Part shown: positions 21,601 through 28,173 of the stretch, piece after piece | How positions within the stretch are numbered: the stretch's first letter is position 1 | How the letters are laid out: each line of letters begins with the position of its first letter | IMG/VR virus record: IMGVR_UViG_3300044998_000190 | Location: 1 to 28,824 of that record | Strand: one strand, 5' to 3' | DNA length: 28,824 bases | DNA from: a virus | The notes under the pieces: generated by a model | Databases searched by the model: none | Told to the model about the DNA's origin: nothing | Seen by the model: only the letters and a program-made list of their open reading frames with translations | Position numbers and translations under genes: made by a program

Positions 21601-22944
21601 TCAGGAAATGATCGCGCGGTCGGTGACGCGCCGCCAGTTGGTGCCGTCCGAGAAGGCGTGCACCGCGCCCCCGCTCTCGTTCGAGACGTAGATGATCGCC
21701 CCCGCGCCCATACCGCTGGCCGAGGGCACGGTGCCCACGGTGAAGCTGCCCACGCGGGCGGCGCCGTTGACGTGCAGGGGCGCGGTCGGGGCGGTGGTGC
21801 CGATGCCGAGGTTGCCGTCGCTCGCCAGCCGTACTCGCTCGCCGTAGCTGCCGCCCGAGTTGCGGGTGGCGAAGCGCAGGGTCGTCTGCATACCCCCGCT
21901 CGCGGGGGCGGCCTCGGTCGTCGCCACGATGCCCGCACCGACGACGAAGGCGCTGGTGTCGGAGACGCCATAGAACTGGATATCGCCGAGGTTATCGCCG
22001 GACTGCACCACCGTGTTGGTGCCGACCGTGGCTGCGCGGCTCTTGGCGAAGACCATCAGCGGGGCGCCGGCATCGGCGCTGTAGCGGAAGATGGTCATGC
22101 TCCCGGTCCCGGAGACACCCTGCACCTGAAGTTGAGCCTGAACGCTGCCGACGGTTTGCGAGGCGCCGCCGCCGATAATAAACCGCCGTGTCGAGTCCAG
22201 CCGCAGGCCCGCCACCCCGCCGGTGCTCCAAGCCAGCGTGTCCGCGGCCACCCGCCACATGCCGGTGTCGGGGTCGGCCGAGAAGCTGAACACCGGCGCC
22301 CCGGCCGAGCCGTCTGCGGCGAGGACCGGCAACGTCAGTGTCAGTGCGGTCGTGGACAGCAGCCACCGCTGCACGCCGCCGGTAGCCGCTCCGATCTGGT
22401 TGTCGGCAGGGCGCAGAAGCCCGGTGTCGGTGTCGGCGGAGAAGGTCAGTGCGGGGGCGGCGGCGGTTCCGTCCTGGGCCAGCACCGGCAGGGTCAGCGA
22501 CAGCCCTGTAGTGGACAGCAGCCACCGCTGCACGCCGCCGGTGGACGCTCCGATCTGGTTGGCGCCTGGGCGCAGGAAGCCGGTGTCGGTGTCGGCGGAG
22601 AAGGCGATCCCGGGCAGGGCCGCCGTGCCGTCAGGCGCCTTCCAGTCGAAGGTCTGCCCGAGGTATGTCAGCAGCGCGTTCGCCCGGTCGATAAGCACCT
22701 GCACGAGCCCCCGCGTCGGGGCGATGGCGTAGGGCTGGCCGGAGGCGGTCGATCCGCGATAGGCCGGGGCGATGGTCAGGGACGTGTCCGAGACGACCGT
22801 GACGATCTCGTAGATGTCGCCAGTAGGGCCGACGAAGGCGTAGCCCGGCTGCACTCCCGGCCCTACCCAGTTGGTCCCCGCCCCCGTTACCGTGGTCGAG
22901 GCGTTGGTCACGGTCACGGTCCCGGCGTTCACCCAGGTCGTCAT
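21601..22944 (-). CDS. tail fibre protein with 53-aa repeat modules
   Basis: This 447-aa protein overlaps the coiled-coil gene by 4 bp (ATGA). After a beta-rich N-terminal domain (1-110), a 53-aa unit with FSADTDTG, NQIG and GGVQRWLLSTT repeats at 112-164 and 165-217, with a diverged third unit from 218. The C-terminal part has NLGIGTTAPTAPLHVNGAARVG and SDGTNWRRVTDRAI, typical of phage tail fibres and host-recognition proteins. There is no C-terminal chaperone (S74) domain. It is probably a trimeric fibre contacting the host surface. Confidence 0.85.
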   Translation of the reverse strand: MTTWVNAGTVTVTNASTTVTGAGTNWVGPGVQPGYAFVGPTGDIYEIVTVVSDTSLTIAPAYRGSTASGQPYAIAPTRGLVQVLIDRANALLTYLGQTFDWKAPDGTAALPGIAFSADTDTGFLRPGANQIGASTGGVQRWLLSTTGLSLTLPVLAQDGTAAAPALTFSADTDTGLLRPADNQIGAATGGVQRWLLSTTALTLTLPVLAADGSAGAPVFSFSADPDTGMWRVAADTLAWSTGGVAGLRLDSTRRFIIGGGASQTVGSVQAQLQVQGVSGTGSMTIFRYSADAGAPLMVFAKSRAATVGTNTVVQSGDNLGDIQFYGVSDTSAFVVGAGIVATTEAAPASGGMQTTLRFATRNSGGSYGERVRLASDGNLGIGTTAPTAPLHVNGAARVGSFTVGTVPSASGMGAGAIIYVSNESGGAVHAFSDGTNWRRVTDRAIIS

Positions 22945-23741
22945 GGCGCAATCCTCAGTTCGATGTCCACGATCCGCGCAAGGATGCTCATGTCCGCGTC
23001 CTCGCGGTCAAGCCCTTCCTGAAAGATCAGGGTGCGCAGGTCGGAAGCGTCCAGTTCGAGCGCCGTCGCGCGGGAGGTCAGGGCGCCCACGTCGCCTTGC
23101 AGGGCGCCCACGTCGCCTTGCAGGGCGCCCACGTCGCCTTGCAGGGCGCCCACGTCCCCCTGAAGGGTAGAGACATCGCCTTGCAGGGCGCCCACGTCCC
23201 CCTGAAGGGTAGAGACATCGCCTTGCAGGGCGCCCACGTCGCCTTGCAGGGCGCCCACGTCCCCCTGAAGGGTCGAGACATCGCCTTGCAGGGTCGAGAC
23301 ATCGCCTTGCAGGGTGCCCACGTCGCCTTGCAGGGTAGAGACATCGCCTTGCAGGGTCGAGACATCGCCTTGCAGGGCGCCCACGTCCCCCTGAAGGGTC
23401 GAGACATCCCCCTGAAGGGCGCCAACGTCCCCCTGAAGGGCGCTGACATCGCCTTGCAGGGTGAGGATGTCGGCCTCGATCAGCGACAGATCGACGGTAG
23501 ACGCTTCGAGCGGCACCCACGTCCCGCCGCGCGACACTACCACCGCCGGGATACCTTGCGGGCGGAACATCAGGATGCCGTCCACGGTCGCCTTTTCGCC
23601 GCCGCGCTGGTGGCGCAGCAGGACGGCGGCGGGGGGCTGGTCGCCCGATCTGGCATCGGCAAGATACCGTGCCAGCTTGAGCGCCCATTCGCGCCAGTCG
23701 CGTTCGTTCTGCGGCGACGGGATGGGGGTGGGGTAACTCAC
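22941..23741 (-). CDS. coiled-coil tail fibre protein with 18 LQGDV heptads
   Basis: This 266-aa protein starts at a GTG within the previous stop (GTGA). A globular N-terminal region (1-90) that likely attaches to the tail precedes 18 heptads of the form LQGDV-S/G-A/T, then TSRATALELDASDLRTL and a helical C-terminus. The heptads have Leu and Val at the a/d positions, predicting a long trimeric coiled coil. It is the rod-like segment of a fibre; length would scale with repeat number. It is adjacent and coupled to the next fibre gene, suggesting a shared fibre. Confidence 0.87.
   Translation of the reverse strand: MSYPTPIPSPQNERDWREWALKLARYLADARSGDQPPAAVLLRHQRGGEKATVDGILMFRPQGIPAVVVSRGGTWVPLEASTVDLSLIEADILTLQGDVSALQGDVGALQGDVSTLQGDVGALQGDVSTLQGDVSTLQGDVGTLQGDVSTLQGDVSTLQGDVGALQGDVGALQGDVSTLQGDVGALQGDVSTLQGDVGALQGDVGALQGDVGALQGDVGALTSRATALELDASDLRTLIFQEGLDREDADMSILARIVDIELRIAP
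23085..23462. repeat. 21-bp tandem repeats encoding LQGDV heptads (18 units)
   Basis: Eighteen near-identical 21-bp units lie head to tail inside the fibre gene, differing only at a few bases that switch Ser/Gly, Ala/Thr and synonymous sites. Because units are multiples of three, gain or loss by slippage or recombination keeps the frame. The opposite strand and alternate frames are open too, but only as an effect of the repeat. Confidence 0.92.
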
Positions 23742-25270
23742 CGCCGTTCGCCCGGCTTGATGTTCACCCGCATGGAGCCGACGCGCCAGCCTGCCGTGCG
23801 ACCTTCGAGCCGCAGCGAGAACTGCCGCCCGCGCGCCCTGACGCCGACCGGCGAGGCCATGCTGTAGGGGCCGAGGACGGTTTCAGGACCGTTCGGCATG
23901 TCGCGCACCTTGAAGATGGCGGTGACGCCGCCGGGCGCGTTCTCGTCGGGATAGATGTAGTCCACATAGACGTGCTGATCGCCCGCGCCGATTTCGAGCG
24001 GGCCAGTCTCGACGAACGGGATCGGGCCGTCCTCGATGGAGACGTTGCGGAGTTCGTGGTTCCACAGGACGCCCATGGGATCGACCATGAGCACGTCGCG
24101 GGTCACGCCCCTGTCCAGCGCCATGCACCTGTCCAGCTTCCCCTTCGTCCAGTGCTGTTGCGCGTAGTCGAAGCAGATGTAGCTGTCAGGCTCGTCGGTC
24201 GGGCTGTCGTTGGACTGGTAGAGCCACCAGACCTCATCGAAGTCCCGCAGCATGAAGCCGAAGGTCTTGGACCTCTGCGCGAAGTTCACATCGTTCACGA
24301 AGAAGTCCGCGATGTCGCTCTCGATCCGCCGCAGCGTCCCGTCCCACAGCCAGACGCTCCGGGTCTCGGACAGCCAGATGGCGAAGCGGTCGGTCGTGAC
24401 AACCGCCGCCGCGCTGATGGCGCCGCAGCCTTCCCCGGCCTTCTCGAAGCCGTAGACGAACGGCGGGCCGATGTAGCGCGCGATGTGCAGGTCGTTCTCG
24501 CCGAGGATAAGCACCTGATTGAGCACCTGATGCAGGCTCAGCAGCTTGCCGAAGCCTGCCAGCCGCAGCGACCCGGCCTGATTGGTCTCGTCGGGCGTCC
24601 AGAGTTCGCGGTTCTCGCGCTCCGACCATGTGACGGTGCGCGGGTCGCGCCCGTCGCCCGTGCCGCCGATCCCCATGAGGATACGCTCGGTCGTCACCAC
24701 GATGTCCTGGAAGTTCTCGGGGGCGTTCGGCACCGGCGCAGGCTCGGGGTCGCCAACCGCCCACGCCCACACCGGCCCCTCGCCGCGCACCTGTGCCAGC
24801 AGTTCGGCGCCCCATGCCGTGAAGGACCATGTGATGACCGGCACGGGCAGGCGCCCGCCGCCCGACCGCGCGGTGCCGTAGGGACCGCCGCCGTAGGCCC
24901 CGACGCCGTAGCCGTTGGCGAACCCGGCGGACCGGGCGCCCACGATCAGGTCATACGGGGTGATGTCGGTGACAACGCCGCTGTCGGACAGATGGTAGAG
25001 CGAGCGGTTCGTGCCGACGACGACCTGCCGGGAAATCGTGTTGTCCTGCCACGAGAAGATACCGCGCGCCGCCTCGTCCGCGCTGGCATCCCACATCGGC
25101 GGGATGTCGGTCACTTCGTCCGAGGTCTTGCGCCGCTCCCAGCCGCCGACAACCCGGATGGCCCCGTCCTTCCAGCGCACTAGGTTGCTGTCGGCCCAGC
25201 GGCCCCGCCCGACATAGGGGGTGCCGGTGGCGTAGACGCCGGGGCGCAGGTCGAGGTTGACAAGGGTCAT
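23738..25270 (-). CDS. P22 gp10-like packaged DNA stabilisation / tail hub protein
   Basis: This 510-aa protein has GGAGG upstream of an ATG 1 bp after the preceding stop. The N-terminal LRPGVYATGTPY and RWADSNLVRWKDGAIRVVGGWERR are typical of podovirus head-tail stabilisation proteins of the P22 gp10 type, and the remainder shows many short beta strands with W and D residues (SVWLWDGTLRRIESDI; WWLYQSNDSP), consistent with a beta-propeller-like fold. It would bind the tail tube or portal and hold DNA in. The family call is from memory of the pattern; tail tube B-like roles are an alternative. Confidence 0.75.
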   Translation of the reverse strand: MTLVNLDLRPGVYATGTPYVGRGRWADSNLVRWKDGAIRVVGGWERRKTSDEVTDIPPMWDASADEAARGIFSWQDNTISRQVVVGTNRSLYHLSDSGVVTDITPYDLIVGARSAGFANGYGVGAYGGGPYGTARSGGGRLPVPVITWSFTAWGAELLAQVRGEGPVWAWAVGDPEPAPVPNAPENFQDIVVTTERILMGIGGTGDGRDPRTVTWSERENRELWTPDETNQAGSLRLAGFGKLLSLHQVLNQVLILGENDLHIARYIGPPFVYGFEKAGEGCGAISAAAVVTTDRFAIWLSETRSVWLWDGTLRRIESDIADFFVNDVNFAQRSKTFGFMLRDFDEVWWLYQSNDSPTDEPDSYICFDYAQQHWTKGKLDRCMALDRGVTRDVLMVDPMGVLWNHELRNVSIEDGPIPFVETGPLEIGAGDQHVYVDYIYPDENAPGGVTAIFKVRDMPNGPETVLGPYSMASPVGVRARGRQFSLRLEGRTAGWRVGSMRVNIKPGERR

Positions 25271-25271
25271 G

Positions 25272-26051
25272 TCAGACCGCCTCCATCGGCGGGGCGCGCA
25301 GATCGGGGAACACCGCGTCCGGGGCGGTGAGGCGGCGCCATTCCTTCGCGCAGTCGAGTTCCGCCATGGTCCACGGCTTCGGGCGCCCGGGGAAGAACAT
25401 CAGTCGCATCCCGGGCGGCGGCACCGGGCGCGCATGGCTGAGGTAGCCGTGCTGGCGCTGGTCGTAGAACAGCACCCCCTCGCGCGGCCCCCAGGTCGCT
25501 TCCCGGGGTCCGAGGACGAAGCTGATCCATGCCTGATCCGACCCGGTGAACCGCTGCGAAGCGGTTCTGGCACCGTCCAGCGTCAGCCCCGTGAACACGG
25601 TCGGTCGCGCCCCGGCGGTGAGCATGACCATGGAGCCGTTGTAGGGCCGCGCCTGCCGGCTCGGGGCGTGGAACAGAACGATGTCCTCGGGGCGGTCGAA
25701 CAGCGGATCGAGCGGCAGGTCGCCGCCGATCACGTCGATGTCCATGCTCACGATCCGCTCGGCGCCGAACAGGTCGGCGGCGTGCGGCGCGAACAGCGCG
25801 AGGCGCCGCCAGCATTGCGGATAGCCCATCGGCTCGGGCCAGCGCGCCGACGAGTAGTCCTCGAACAGCCCCGGCGGCGGAATGACCTCGATGTGCGGTG
25901 CCAGCCCTTCCGGGGTGTCTGTCACGCAGGCCAGCCGGTGCGGGATCGACAGGCGCGAGGCCACGATCTCCGCCCACACGTTCACATGCGCCGCCGTGTA
26001 GATCACGCGGCCGTTCGGTTGCGACCAGAGCCAGGTCAGCACCTTGAGCAT
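25272..26051 (-). CDS. DxD glycosyltransferase-like protein
   Basis: This 259-aa protein begins at an ATG overlapping the preceding stop (TGATG). It has an N-terminal nucleotide-binding-like strand set (HRLACVTDTPEG), the metal-binding DxD in IVSMDIDVIGG (D104, D106), and YNGSMVMLTAG followed by GSDQAWISFVLGP, a pattern of GT-A fold glycosyltransferases. The sugar donor and acceptor are unknown: possible targets are virion proteins, DNA bases or host surface sugars. It lies between the lysis cassette and tail genes, in the same strand and operon. Confidence 0.83.
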   Translation of the reverse strand: MLKVLTWLWSQPNGRVIYTAAHVNVWAEIVASRLSIPHRLACVTDTPEGLAPHIEVIPPPGLFEDYSSARWPEPMGYPQCWRRLALFAPHAADLFGAERIVSMDIDVIGGDLPLDPLFDRPEDIVLFHAPSRQARPYNGSMVMLTAGARPTVFTGLTLDGARTASQRFTGSDQAWISFVLGPREATWGPREGVLFYDQRQHGYLSHARPVPPPGMRLMFFPGRPKPWTMAELDCAKEWRRLTAPDAVFPDLRAPPMEAV

Positions 26052-26212
26052 CAGCGCGGTTCGCTCCACTCGGCGGCGTGCATGGCGTCCTTCCCGGCGT
26101 CCTGCGGCGCCTTCCGCGCGCGCCCGCGCTCGGTCATGGTGCCCATGTAGTAGCCGAGCGCGTAGGCCCCCGCGATCACCAGCGGCAGCAGGACAGTTCC
26201 GAGGGTGCTCAT
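26051..26212 (-). CDS. small single-membrane-segment protein (spanin/holin-like)
   Basis: This 53-aa protein starts at an ATG overlapping the endolysin stop (ATGA), with GGAGGG about 8 nt upstream; a TTG 10 codons earlier is unlikely. An N-terminal hydrophobic segment (about residues 3-23) is followed by a charged tail rich in Lys, Arg, Asp and Glu. Immediately after an endolysin, such a protein is often an inner-membrane spanin or a lysis accessory, but it is too short for a typical i-spanin and no outer-membrane partner is seen. Confidence 0.7.
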   Translation of the reverse strand: MSTLGTVLLPLVIAGAYALGYYMGTMTERGRARKAPQDAGKDAMHAAEWSEPR

Positions 26213-26871
26213 TGCCCGTCCCTCCGGCGCCACAGAACCCAAGCCAGCAGCCCGGCGAGCCCGATGGTGGCGATGGGCTGCACTTCGACCGGGAGTTCAC
26301 CGACGACGCGATGCACCACCGGCACGATTTCGGGCGGCAGCATCGCCAGCACTTCCGCCGCCACCAGCACCGCGCCCGCCCCCACGACAACCTTGGTCTC
26401 GGTCGGCACGGGCTGCGGTCCGACCGGAGGCATCTTCGGTTCCTCCGGGAGGCTCGTGGCGGGAGAGGCCGGGAAGGGGTCGCCCCACGTCCGCGTCGGG
26501 CCGGTGTCGATGTGGATGAAGCCCTGCTTCGGATAGGTGCCGATGCCGGAGAACCCGAAGGCTTTGGCGCTCTTGATGAACTCGGCGGGGTTGTGGTTCG
26601 CGATGGCGATGTCGAACGCCTTGCCCTGCATGTGGAAGCTGTCCTTCGCGCCGCCTACCTTGGCGTTGTGCGCCGGGGTCCGGTAGGCCGAAATCACGAT
26701 CATCGGCTTGTCCAGCGCCCTGCGCAGGGCTTGCAGCTTGTCCAGCGTAGGCACGTCCAGCAGAACGCTGCCATCGTCCTTCGATGCCAGTTCCCGGGGC
26801 GAGAAGTTCGGCCAGCGCCACATCCCGGACGGCACCTTCGACCAGTGGTCGGCCTTGATGGTCATGCTCAT
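26209..26871 (-). CDS. M15-type peptidase endolysin with C-terminal membrane segments
   Basis: This 220-aa protein has an M15_3-like peptidase domain at 1-130: SAYRTPAHNAKVGG, SFHMQGKAFDIAI with H80 and D87, and GFIHIDTG with H120 as zinc ligands. After a Pro-rich linker (132-158) come two hydrophobic segments (about 161-178 and 199-213) and a basic tail WRRRDGQ. It should cut peptidoglycan peptide cross-links, and the membrane part may anchor or release it like a holin. The ATG is chosen for its ATGA overlap with the preceding gene; an in-frame ATG two codons on is possible. Confidence 0.86.
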   Translation of the reverse strand: MSMTIKADHWSKVPSGMWRWPNFSPRELASKDDGSVLLDVPTLDKLQALRRALDKPMIVISAYRTPAHNAKVGGAKDSFHMQGKAFDIAIANHNPAEFIKSAKAFGFSGIGTYPKQGFIHIDTGPTRTWGDPFPASPATSLPEEPKMPPVGPQPVPTETKVVVGAGAVLVAAEVLAMLPPEIVPVVHRVVGELPVEVQPIATIGLAGLLAWVLWRRRDGQ

Positions 26872-27083
26872 GGCCTTTGCAAGTCCTCTCCATGGTTGCC
26901 GTAGGTCTGCTTGTAGAATTGCAGGCGGTCGTTCATCCGCTTCGCCATGTCGAACGCCATTTCGATCTCGGCCTTGATCGCGTCCGGGTCGCCGCCCTCG
27001 TCGCAAAGGCGCCACGCCTCTCGCAACCGCTGGCACAGCGTGTCACGCTGACTGCGGCGCCAGTGGTCGATAGGGTATTTCAC
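26868..27083 (-). CDS. hypothetical small helical protein
   Basis: This 71-aa protein starts at a GTG overlapping the preceding stop (GTGA); the longer open frame upstream lies over the neighbouring gene. It is strongly charged and helical (QRDTLCQRLREAWRLCDEGGDPDAIKAEIEMAFDMAKRMNDRLQFYKQTYG) with no membrane segment. It is coupled to the endolysin gene. A lysis regulator is possible by position only. Confidence 0.7.
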   Translation of the reverse strand: MKYPIDHWRRSQRDTLCQRLREAWRLCDEGGDPDAIKAEIEMAFDMAKRMNDRLQFYKQTYGNHGEDLQRP

Positions 27084-27421
27084 GGGGAACCGGCGAGGGT
27101 TTTCCACAGCAACGTCACTCCCGAACCGACCCCTGCGGCCATGACAGAGACCACCATGAGGGCGCCCTTGCCCATGAACCGCAGCGCCTCCATGCGCCCG
27201 ACCGTGGGCTGCATGGTGGCGACCGACCGTTCGAGGGCGTCCACCTTCCGCACCAGCGCGTTCAGGTCGGTGTGAACCGCTGCGCGGCTGGCGCTGCTGT
27301 CGGTCTGCATCTGCGCGACGGTCGCAATGAGGGCTTCGATCTTGCCATGCACCGTGCCAAGGGAATGGCTGATGCTGACCATCGTCGCCGCATGATCGGC
27401 TGCGTTCACGGTATTCTCCAT
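27080..27421 (-). CDS. coiled-coil protein with C-terminal TM segment (holin candidate)
   Basis: This 113-aa protein starts at an ATG overlapping the preceding stop (TGATG). Residues about 15-75 form a heptad-like helix (SLGTVHGKIEALIATVAQM; LNALVRKVDALERSVATM), and about 84-107 is hydrophobic (ALMVVSVMAAGVGSGVTLLW) before a short tail. The coiled-coil plus C-terminal membrane segment layout occurs in small phage membrane proteins near endolysins. It may be a holin or a membrane adaptor; one membrane segment alone leaves this open. Confidence 0.7.
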   Translation of the reverse strand: MENTVNAADHAATMVSISHSLGTVHGKIEALIATVAQMQTDSSASRAAVHTDLNALVRKVDALERSVATMQPTVGRMEALRFMGKGALMVVSVMAAGVGSGVTLLWKTLAGSP

Positions 27422-28173
27422 CACGAAATCCGCACGAACAGGGCAAGCGTGTAATAGGAGCCGACCCCGCCGGTTCCGCTGAACGTGGTGGTCAGCGCCC
27501 GCCATGTCCCGCTCAACGCCGAGGGCGCGACCTGCAAGGTAAAGTTCCCCGAGTTCTGAGGTTGTTCGACCATCGACGCCGGGCGCAGGAGCGACCCGGC
27601 GTAGGTGCTGCCAAGCGTAACCGCGCCGTCGATACGGCAGAGCATCGTTGTCCCGATTGCGCCCGGAGACAGGCTTGTAATGACAGAGAGCACCGCCGCC
27701 GTGAACGCGCTGTCGAACACCATCTTGGCGCCGGTCACGGACCCGTCTGCCAGCTTCGGCGTCGTCACGGCGCCGTTGTTGATCTTCGTCGTGACCACGG
27801 CGTTCGCCGCGATCTTGTCAGCGACCACGGCGCCGTTCGCCAGCATCCCCGAAGTGACCCCGAGCGCGGCGATCCCGAGCGCAACGTCGCCTGCCAGAGC
27901 GCCGCCGCCGGTCAGCCCGGCGCCTGCCGTGACCTGCCGCGTCGTCCTGACGACATCGGTGTCGACGGCGAGCGTCACGTCGCCGGTCAGGGCGCCGCCG
28001 CCGGTCAGCCCGCTGCCCGGAGCGGTCACGATCTGACGGGACGCCAGCGCCCGCGCGGCGATGGCCGTGTCCAGCGTCGTCATGTTGGCGTTCAGCTTGG
28101 TTCCCCAGGTGTCCGACGAGCCGCCGACTTCGGGCTGCGTCAGGTTGAGGTTCGGCGTGAAGCTGTCGGGCAT
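27421..28173 (-). CDS. tail fibre / host-recognition protein
   Basis: This 250-aa protein begins with NLNLTQPEVGGSSDTWGTKLNANM, an N-terminal motif common in phage tail fibres and baseplate proteins. Beta-rich repeats follow: SGLTGGGALTGDVTLAVDTDVV and AGLTGGGALAGDVALGIAALGV are two similar units, then a TT/V-rich stem and a globular C-terminus (SLLRPASMVEQPQNSGNFTLQV). It lies 12 bp after the partial gene upstream. Host receptor binding is likely. Confidence 0.85.
   Translation of the reverse strand: MPDSFTPNLNLTQPEVGGSSDTWGTKLNANMTTLDTAIAARALASRQIVTAPGSGLTGGGALTGDVTLAVDTDVVRTTRQVTAGAGLTGGGALAGDVALGIAALGVTSGMLANGAVVADKIAANAVVTTKINNGAVTTPKLADGSVTGAKMVFDSAFTAAVLSVITSLSPGAIGTTMLCRIDGAVTLGSTYAGSLLRPASMVEQPQNSGNFTLQVAPSALSGTWRALTTTFSGTGGVGSYYTLALFVRIS

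Follow-up and report, generated by a model that had tools for sequence, protein, structure and literature searches.

The window analysed here, a whole stretch of 28,824 nt from the viral record IMGVR_UViG_3300044998_000190, encodes on its minus strand a 220-aa protein (26209..26871, ATG to TGA) that we consider, with a probability of about 0.7, to be a phage endolysin in which a portable C-terminal hairpin of two hydrophobic segments tethers a zinc peptidase of the M15 type to the inner membrane. The likelihoods given here to this reading and to its rivals are overlapping and do not sum to one.

The catalytic domain comprises residues 1–133 (26473..26871, minus strand) and is supported by profile, alignment and fold. 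Residues 39–122 match Peptidase_M15_3 (PF08291) in Pfam with an E value of 6.1e-25 and 87.9 bits against a cutoff of 23.2. In PHROGs, the 220-aa protein matches phrog_17373 'peptidase' (E 8e-56), aligning to positions 6–192 of the 224 in the profile and leaving the last part of the hairpin uncovered; a relative with a hairpin of type C, defined below, matches over the full 1–224. The sole PDB sequence match is the Zn DD-peptidase 1lbu, which also ranks first by fold (E 1.9e-6, with a TM-score of 0.39 over the whole query), and the ligand region of the window protein aligns to it. H80, D87, and H120 (26632-26634, 26611-26613, and 26512-26514, minus strand), at positions that we take to be those of the M15 zinc ligands, are invariant in 43 of 43 aligned sequences, window included, and form the His-x6-Asp ... 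His pattern. An AlphaFold2 model built on the same 43-sequence alignment has block pLDDT values of 93–98 over residues 1–130 and a whole-model mean of 86.6. The domain also matches the MepK profile, below its cutoff. By profile and fold the protein is thus assigned to Peptidase M15. It is predicted to cut peptidoglycan by analogy with the assayed relative, the Jorvik M15 enzyme, which is reported to digest R. capsulatus walls (PMC10589892).

A Pro-rich linker follows at about residues 134–160 (26392..26472, minus strand), assigned by reading and of low pLDDT, with values falling from 79 to 43 over residues 131–170. It leads into the only two segments of the protein that stand out by Kyte–Doolittle hydropathy, residues 159–186 (peak 2.19) and 195–213 (1.64). 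The initial annotation, which had read an M15-type peptidase, a Pro-rich linker and two hydrophobic segments in one protein, is confirmed by these results. In the AlphaFold2 model, the first segment (residues ~161–191, 26299..26391, minus strand) is split around a Pro-Pro into helices 168–177 and 183–191, with block pLDDT values of 43–80, and the second (26221..26289, minus strand) is one long helix, 195–217, with pLDDT 84–88, that runs into a basic C-terminus (RRR). 'Two hydrophobic segments' is therefore a correct description, yet the model gives a full-length membrane helix only for the second. By the same hydropathy analysis, there is no N-terminal hydrophobic segment of the kind that gives a SAR endolysin its weak N-terminal TM signal.

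The layout had been likened to an endolysin joined to a holin-like domain. The fusion itself holds, with an enzyme joined to a conserved two-segment domain in a lysis-type neighbourhood (see below), but the label 'holin-like' is unproven: ten hairpins gave no significant match to holin families in Pfam, PHROGs, or NCBIfam (best scores Phage_holin_10, E 0.35, and phrog_4237 holin, E 0.51), and none at E ≤ 1 to the class II holin PF04971, a search in which the HMMER filters may hide weak matches. Membership of the hairpin in a known holin family, being unsupported in these three collections, was rejected. For EssD, which is presumably S21-type, the 80 viral relatives kept are 96–100% identical to one another and yield no useful profile, so no comparison is claimed. 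An in-frame ATG (26431..26433, minus strand), preceded by a GGAGG that ends 8 nt upstream, might give rise to a free hairpin. As a family feature such a start was rejected, since its frequency is close to the expectation from synonymous shuffling: internal start sites of this kind were counted in 10 of the 50 representatives where 9.5 would be expected, and, with ATG as the only start codon, in 4 where 2.3 would be.

The membrane tail on the M15 enzyme is more than chance. A profile search of viral contigs returned 243 relatives, and among the best 80 kept, near-duplicates included, a C-terminal TM segment is present in 74 of the 75 that bear a stop; L096 is the single exception, and the other five run off their contigs. 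Among the best 80 of 145 relatives from bacterial genomes, the hairpin is found in five (one Paracoccus, one Tritonibacter, and three Rhodobacteraceae) and is absent from 75. The sources of the relatives are phages of R. capsulatus and genomes of Rhodobacteraceae, and the same fusion, which the initial annotation had proposed to look for in other phages, is also present in gp2 of RcSpartan and RcTitan. By simple motifs, the hairpins of 79 TM-bearing relatives with a stop fall into types A (19), B (29), and C (27), with four others. The window hairpin scores 27.9 bits against a type B profile, where 300 segment-shuffled controls reach at most 12.2, and 20.6 bits against an A+B profile (shuffled maximum 11.4). 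With the profile of type A or type C alone it is not distinct, 35 of 300 shuffles reaching the score in each, and 1 of 300 does so with a broad profile built from type C together with non-M15 hairpins.

The two segments differ in character across 50 representatives (the window protein and 49 others, at 90% identity). Mean hydropathy is 1.30 for segment 1 and 2.11 for segment 2, and the threshold of 1.6 is passed by the first in three representatives and by the second in all 50, so that in 47 the second is the only strongly hydrophobic segment. The G/A/S/T content is higher in segment 1 in 49 of the 50. Mean K+R is 0.24 in the inter-segment loop and 3.66 in the C-terminal tail, with the tail exceeding the loop in every representative, a charge pattern that would fit a periplasmic loop and a cytoplasmic C-terminus. 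The window protein is among the three with a strong segment 1, its segment 2 lying near the threshold (1.64), and is therefore not typical of the family.

The surprising element is that the hairpin is common to three enzyme classes. In a search of 289 genomes with phrog_17373, 108 matched, as did 3 of 14 control genomes; most of the matches listed cover the enzyme part only, and three are confined to the hairpin part of the profile. A second search, of 385 genomes of the class of genome G001, titled a Paracoccus MAG, used a profile built from 13 hairpins of type C, each taken from an M15 protein, and scored at most 15 candidates per genome, so its counts are lower bounds: at least 18 C-terminal hairpins in at least 17 of the 385 genomes. 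When their frames were read and compared with PHROGs and Pfam, these 18 divided into six M15 enzymes, one of which carries an in-frame stop, six proteins of the Enc34/M4Lys type, and six GH24 lysozymes. The Enc34/M4Lys-type proteins, two of them partial, match phrog_873, a family also matched by M4Lys, and the protein at locus L374 shares 34% identity with M4Lys across 166 columns. The GH24 lysozymes with a hairpin in genomes of this class are L364, L366, L367, L369, L370, and L372; all match phrog_7 or PF00959 except L370, which was put in GH24 solely by motif and likeness to L367. In a set of 198 genomes of one family, 46 carry type C hairpins (48 by profile), and among 34 loci whose frames were read, M15 motifs are present in 32, the remaining two being truncated. 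The A/B-type profile, window included, gave two matches in the 385 genomes, so this type is hardly seen in genomes. Searches of the phage collection by tblastn with one type C hairpin and with the GH24-linked hairpin of L369 returned no match, a weak result with the low-complexity filter on.

Profile–profile comparison by hhalign supports this sharing. The trimmed hairpins of the three enzyme classes match one another with 98.9–99.2% probability, and 0 of 100 segment-shuffled controls reach the score. The A/B set, whose profile the window hairpin fits, matches the GH24 hairpins at 96.1% (E 3.1e-9), the Enc34-type hairpins at 89.8%, and type C at 82.5%, again with 0 of 100 shuffles in each case. 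For the Chivirus M4Lys hairpins, the probability is 90.4% (E 1.4e-6) with the GH24 set, 73.5% with the Enc34-type set, and 67%, across 25 columns, with the A/B set, each reached by none of 100 shuffles; with M15 type C it is 36% and 2 of 100 shuffles reach it. The direct resemblance of M15 hairpins to M4Lys is weak, so the link to Chivirus itself is suggestive, not proven. These comparisons use trimmed hairpins. In a separate comparison, the score of non-M15 hairpins against M4Lys is possibly inflated by shared linker residues, and in an untrimmed set two of seven comparisons were reached by controls (A versus M4Lys, 5/100; C versus B, 1/100).

Contig C5 of genome G297 carries two lysis cassettes, probably belonging to two prophages, which have common neighbours and a common hairpin around unrelated catalytic domains, M15 in L359 and Enc34-type in L374. 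Between the two loci, the upstream one-TM protein is 58% identical over 93 aa, the hairpin 43% over 75, the i-spanin-like ORF 62% over 45, and the lipoprotein-like, o-spanin-like ORF 65% over 75 (spanin labels assigned by position and form), and the catalytic domains give no BLAST match at 1e-4. The occurrence of the hairpin on three unrelated enzymes and the swap of enzymes within a cassette argue that it is the working part, and suggest a portable membrane part, found on three unrelated wall-cutting enzymes, that may aid the bursting of the host.

We then turn to the neighbouring genes, all on the minus strand, whose junctions from a tail-fibre-like gene through the 53-aa gene described below overlap by 1–4 bases. 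A 113-aa protein (27080..27421) has a coiled-coil-like N-terminal part and a C-terminal TM (86–106), resembles DUF1515 (PF07439, 24.3 bits, cutoff 22.2), and is a candidate partner. It is followed by a 71-aa ORF (26868..27083) whose GTG start overlaps the previous stop and whose own stop overlaps the ATG of the endolysin (ATGA), and, beyond the endolysin, by a 53-aa one-TM protein (26051..26212) at the place of the i-spanin-like one-TM ORF of the relatives. The coiled-coil TM protein and the small TM protein that the initial annotation had placed around the endolysin are thus both real, the coiled coils of the neighbour proteins being called by reading, and the 71-aa ORF, which it does not mention, separates the 113-aa gene from the endolysin. 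The 53-aa protein has no PHROG match and is short for an i-spanin, and a simple lipobox scan found no o-spanin-like lipoprotein in the window.

In the loci of the relatives, an i-spanin-like one-TM ORF lies downstream of the endolysin in 36 of 39, compared with 7 of 48 in a reverse-strand control. For an upstream one-TM ORF, a first test (34 of 48 loci versus 18 of 39 in the reverse-strand control) was dropped as too permissive; a conservation test, which requires a homolog at another locus, finds one at 25 of 50 loci compared with 7 of 50 in the control. The proposal that lysis control differs from a separate holin/endolysin pair is therefore half right: the fusion is there, but half of the loci also have a conserved separate one-TM neighbour, and fused layouts of this kind have already been published for other enzymes. 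These 25 proteins have an N-terminal TM and a tail in 15 cases and a tail and a C-terminal TM in 10, and K+R within 12 residues is higher on the tail side in 24, often by a single residue, and equal in one. The upstream proteins include one kind matching DUF6127, another matching XhlA below cutoff, and the DUF1515-like protein of the window. The window and RcSpartan fall outside the 25 loci; in the window, another gene separates the upstream one-TM gene from the endolysin, and for RcSpartan gp1 the set contains no homolog. The gene upstream of M4Lys, BSPM4_0037, encodes one TM and a long tail; PHROGs places it with the Rz-like spanins (phrog_7686, E 6e-58), which makes a holin role of the upstream partner less certain.

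Several other features of the window were observed. The structural gene at 23738-25270 has its nearest match in Octadecabacter Antarctic DB virus 2 (37.5%), and between this gene and the 53-aa gene lies a weakly glycosyltransferase-like ORF (25272-26051, minus strand; phrog_1962, E 0.008). The ORF at 22941-23741 (minus strand) encodes a protein of many near-identical LQGDV-type heptads that matches minor-head and tail-needle PHROGs and is perhaps a long coiled-coil tail part. On the plus strand, a Pro-Ala run (1 to ~125) stands ahead of an ATPase ORF (phrog_249 'porphyrin biosynthesis'), which we take to be CobS-like, and an RRPQ-type simple repeat is present in another reading frame at ~1950-2110.

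The analysis shows the domains, their conservation, the sharing of the hairpin by three enzyme types, and the gene context; for topology, tethering, trigger, and crossing we infer the following. Insertion would take place from the cytoplasmic side and leave the basic C-terminus in the cytoplasm. Segment 1, which most relatives have in a weak, Gly/Ala-rich form, would be marginal in the membrane, and segment 2 would be the real anchor. The enzyme would at first be kept tethered, apart from the peptidoglycan. A membrane event at a late stage, set off by the hairpins, by a separate one-TM partner or by both, would then allow the tethered domain to reach the wall. The hairpin would be needed for this step, and spanin-like proteins would then complete lysis. 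In favour of this working scheme we count the M15 profile, fold, and ligands, the retention of the hairpin and its sharing by three enzymes, the conserved upstream partner, the charge and hydropathy pattern, the wall digestion by the Jorvik enzyme, and the need for the TMD in two other endolysins. Removal of the C-terminal TMD abolishes lysis when M4Lys is expressed in E. coli; M4Lys expressed alone lyses the cells, and its TMD alone is bacteriostatic (PMC7143992). LysAP, a GH24 enzyme with a C-terminal TMD, likewise lyses E. coli when expressed alone and loses lysis when this TMD is removed (PMC8879335). Counted against the scheme are a topology predicted from charge and hydropathy only and the differing predictions of other authors, N-out/C-in for M4Lys (PMC7143992) and N-in/C-in, with two C-terminal TM domains, for the Siskin endolysin (PMC6498227). 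Sec dependence is contradictory, since neither holin nor Sec is reported to be needed for M4Lys (PMC7143992) and Sec use is reported for LysAP (PMC8879335). The broken first segment in the AlphaFold2 model, the atypical window protein and the position of the window and RcSpartan outside the loci with a conserved partner also count against it, as do the spanin label of BSPM4_0037 and the lack of an o-spanin-like lipoprotein in the window.

The most serious rival, which we hold to be possible though the less probable reading, is that the hairpin is only a passive anchor: a separate holin would make the hole, and anchoring would concentrate the enzyme or delay its release. The conserved one-TM protein beside the endolysin in half of the loci and the lack of a holin match for the hairpin are in line with this, as is the holin of the Siskin cassette, with an N-out/C-in N-terminal TM and regarded by its authors as a possible class IV holin (PMC6498227). 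A purely passive role is harder to reconcile with the lysis of E. coli by M4Lys and LysAP alone, with the bacteriostatic effect of the M4Lys TMD, and with the placing of BSPM4_0037 among spanins and not holins.

We think it unlikely that only the second segment spans the membrane, with export to an N-out, C-in state and action from the periplasm in the manner of the C-terminal SAR endolysin that LysAP was named (PMC8879335). The subthreshold first segment in 47 of 50 representatives, its break in the AlphaFold2 model, and the basic C-terminus would suit such an arrangement; a hairpin with a periplasmic loop, too, would agree with the nearly K/R-free loop of the family, and the Enc34 authors know of no route by which a C-terminal signal carries an N-terminal hydrophilic domain across (PMC8943055). 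Equally doubtful is an enzyme-agnostic, cis-acting release module, that is, an endolysin with its own hole-former. Here, M15, GH24, or Enc34-type domains would be exchanged within a single cassette, and flipping or oligomerisation of the hairpin, together with its weak first helix, would give any attached enzyme access to the wall; the internal ATG (26433) and GGAGG could also give a free holin-like hairpin in this phage. Finally, a virion-associated or housekeeping wall hydrolase is very improbable: the gene does lie between the tail-fibre-like gene (27421-28173) and the structural gene, chromosomal relatives exist, and MepK is matched below cutoff, but the i-spanin-like ORF follows in nearly all relatives' loci and the hairpin is missing from 75 of the best 80 of 145 bacterial-genome relatives.

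Compared with known systems, the preferred reading, a tethered M15 endolysin, describes a layout of a known kind. The fused arrangement is already in print for other enzymes, Siskin, M4Lys, and Enc34 with PHA02564 and LysAP with GH24 (PMC6498227, PMC7143992, PMC8943055, PMC8879335); new are the M15 version and the evidence for a portable hairpin. Among titles and abstract openings of the open-licence literature, we found no published M15 version or shared hairpin. The portions available of a spanin survey (PMC6139136) hold nothing on M15 endolysins, and the word 'transmembrane' is absent from the available main text of PMC8601537 and PMC10783043, on R. capsulatus or alphaproteobacterial phages. 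Cobavirus endolysins of other Rhodobacteraceae phages are described in the accessible part of PMC6775973 as free of membrane anchors.

Enc34, M4Lys (phage BSPM4), and Siskin share with the window protein an N-terminal enzyme, a linker, a C-terminal two-segment membrane domain, and a basic end; M4Lys also has its one-TM gene upstream, and the Enc34 endolysin has a two-helix C-terminal TMD with spanin genes downstream (PMC8943055). Their catalytic domain is PHA02564, whereas the window enzyme is an unrelated M15 peptidase, and phrog_873 is not among its PHROGs matches; judged on sequence, it has the layout of the Siskin/Enc34 endolysins and falls outside the Enc34 family. Also similar, by description, is LysAP from Acidovorax phage AP1, with a C-terminal TMD that is followed by basic residues and needed for lysis; it differs in its GH24 enzyme and the one TMD described (PMC8879335). 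According to the Enc34 paper, the C-terminal TMD layout is seemingly confined to Chivirus and some phages related to it, and the crossing of an N-terminal enzyme with a C-terminal anchor is unexplained (PMC8943055); LysAP is a further published case (PMC8879335). Natural chimeras and tail-less controls such as the Jorvik M15 make the crossing question testable. The Jorvik endolysin, gp3, has a related catalytic domain (46% identity) and a Pro-rich tail but, by reading, no membrane segment. The gp2 of the Titanvirus isolates RcSpartan and RcTitan combines M15, linker, and hairpin in 218 aa with a one-TM gene upstream; it is 39% identical to the window protein and annotated solely as peptidase or peptidase M15, so that the same kind of protein is carried by isolated phages of R. 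capsulatus.
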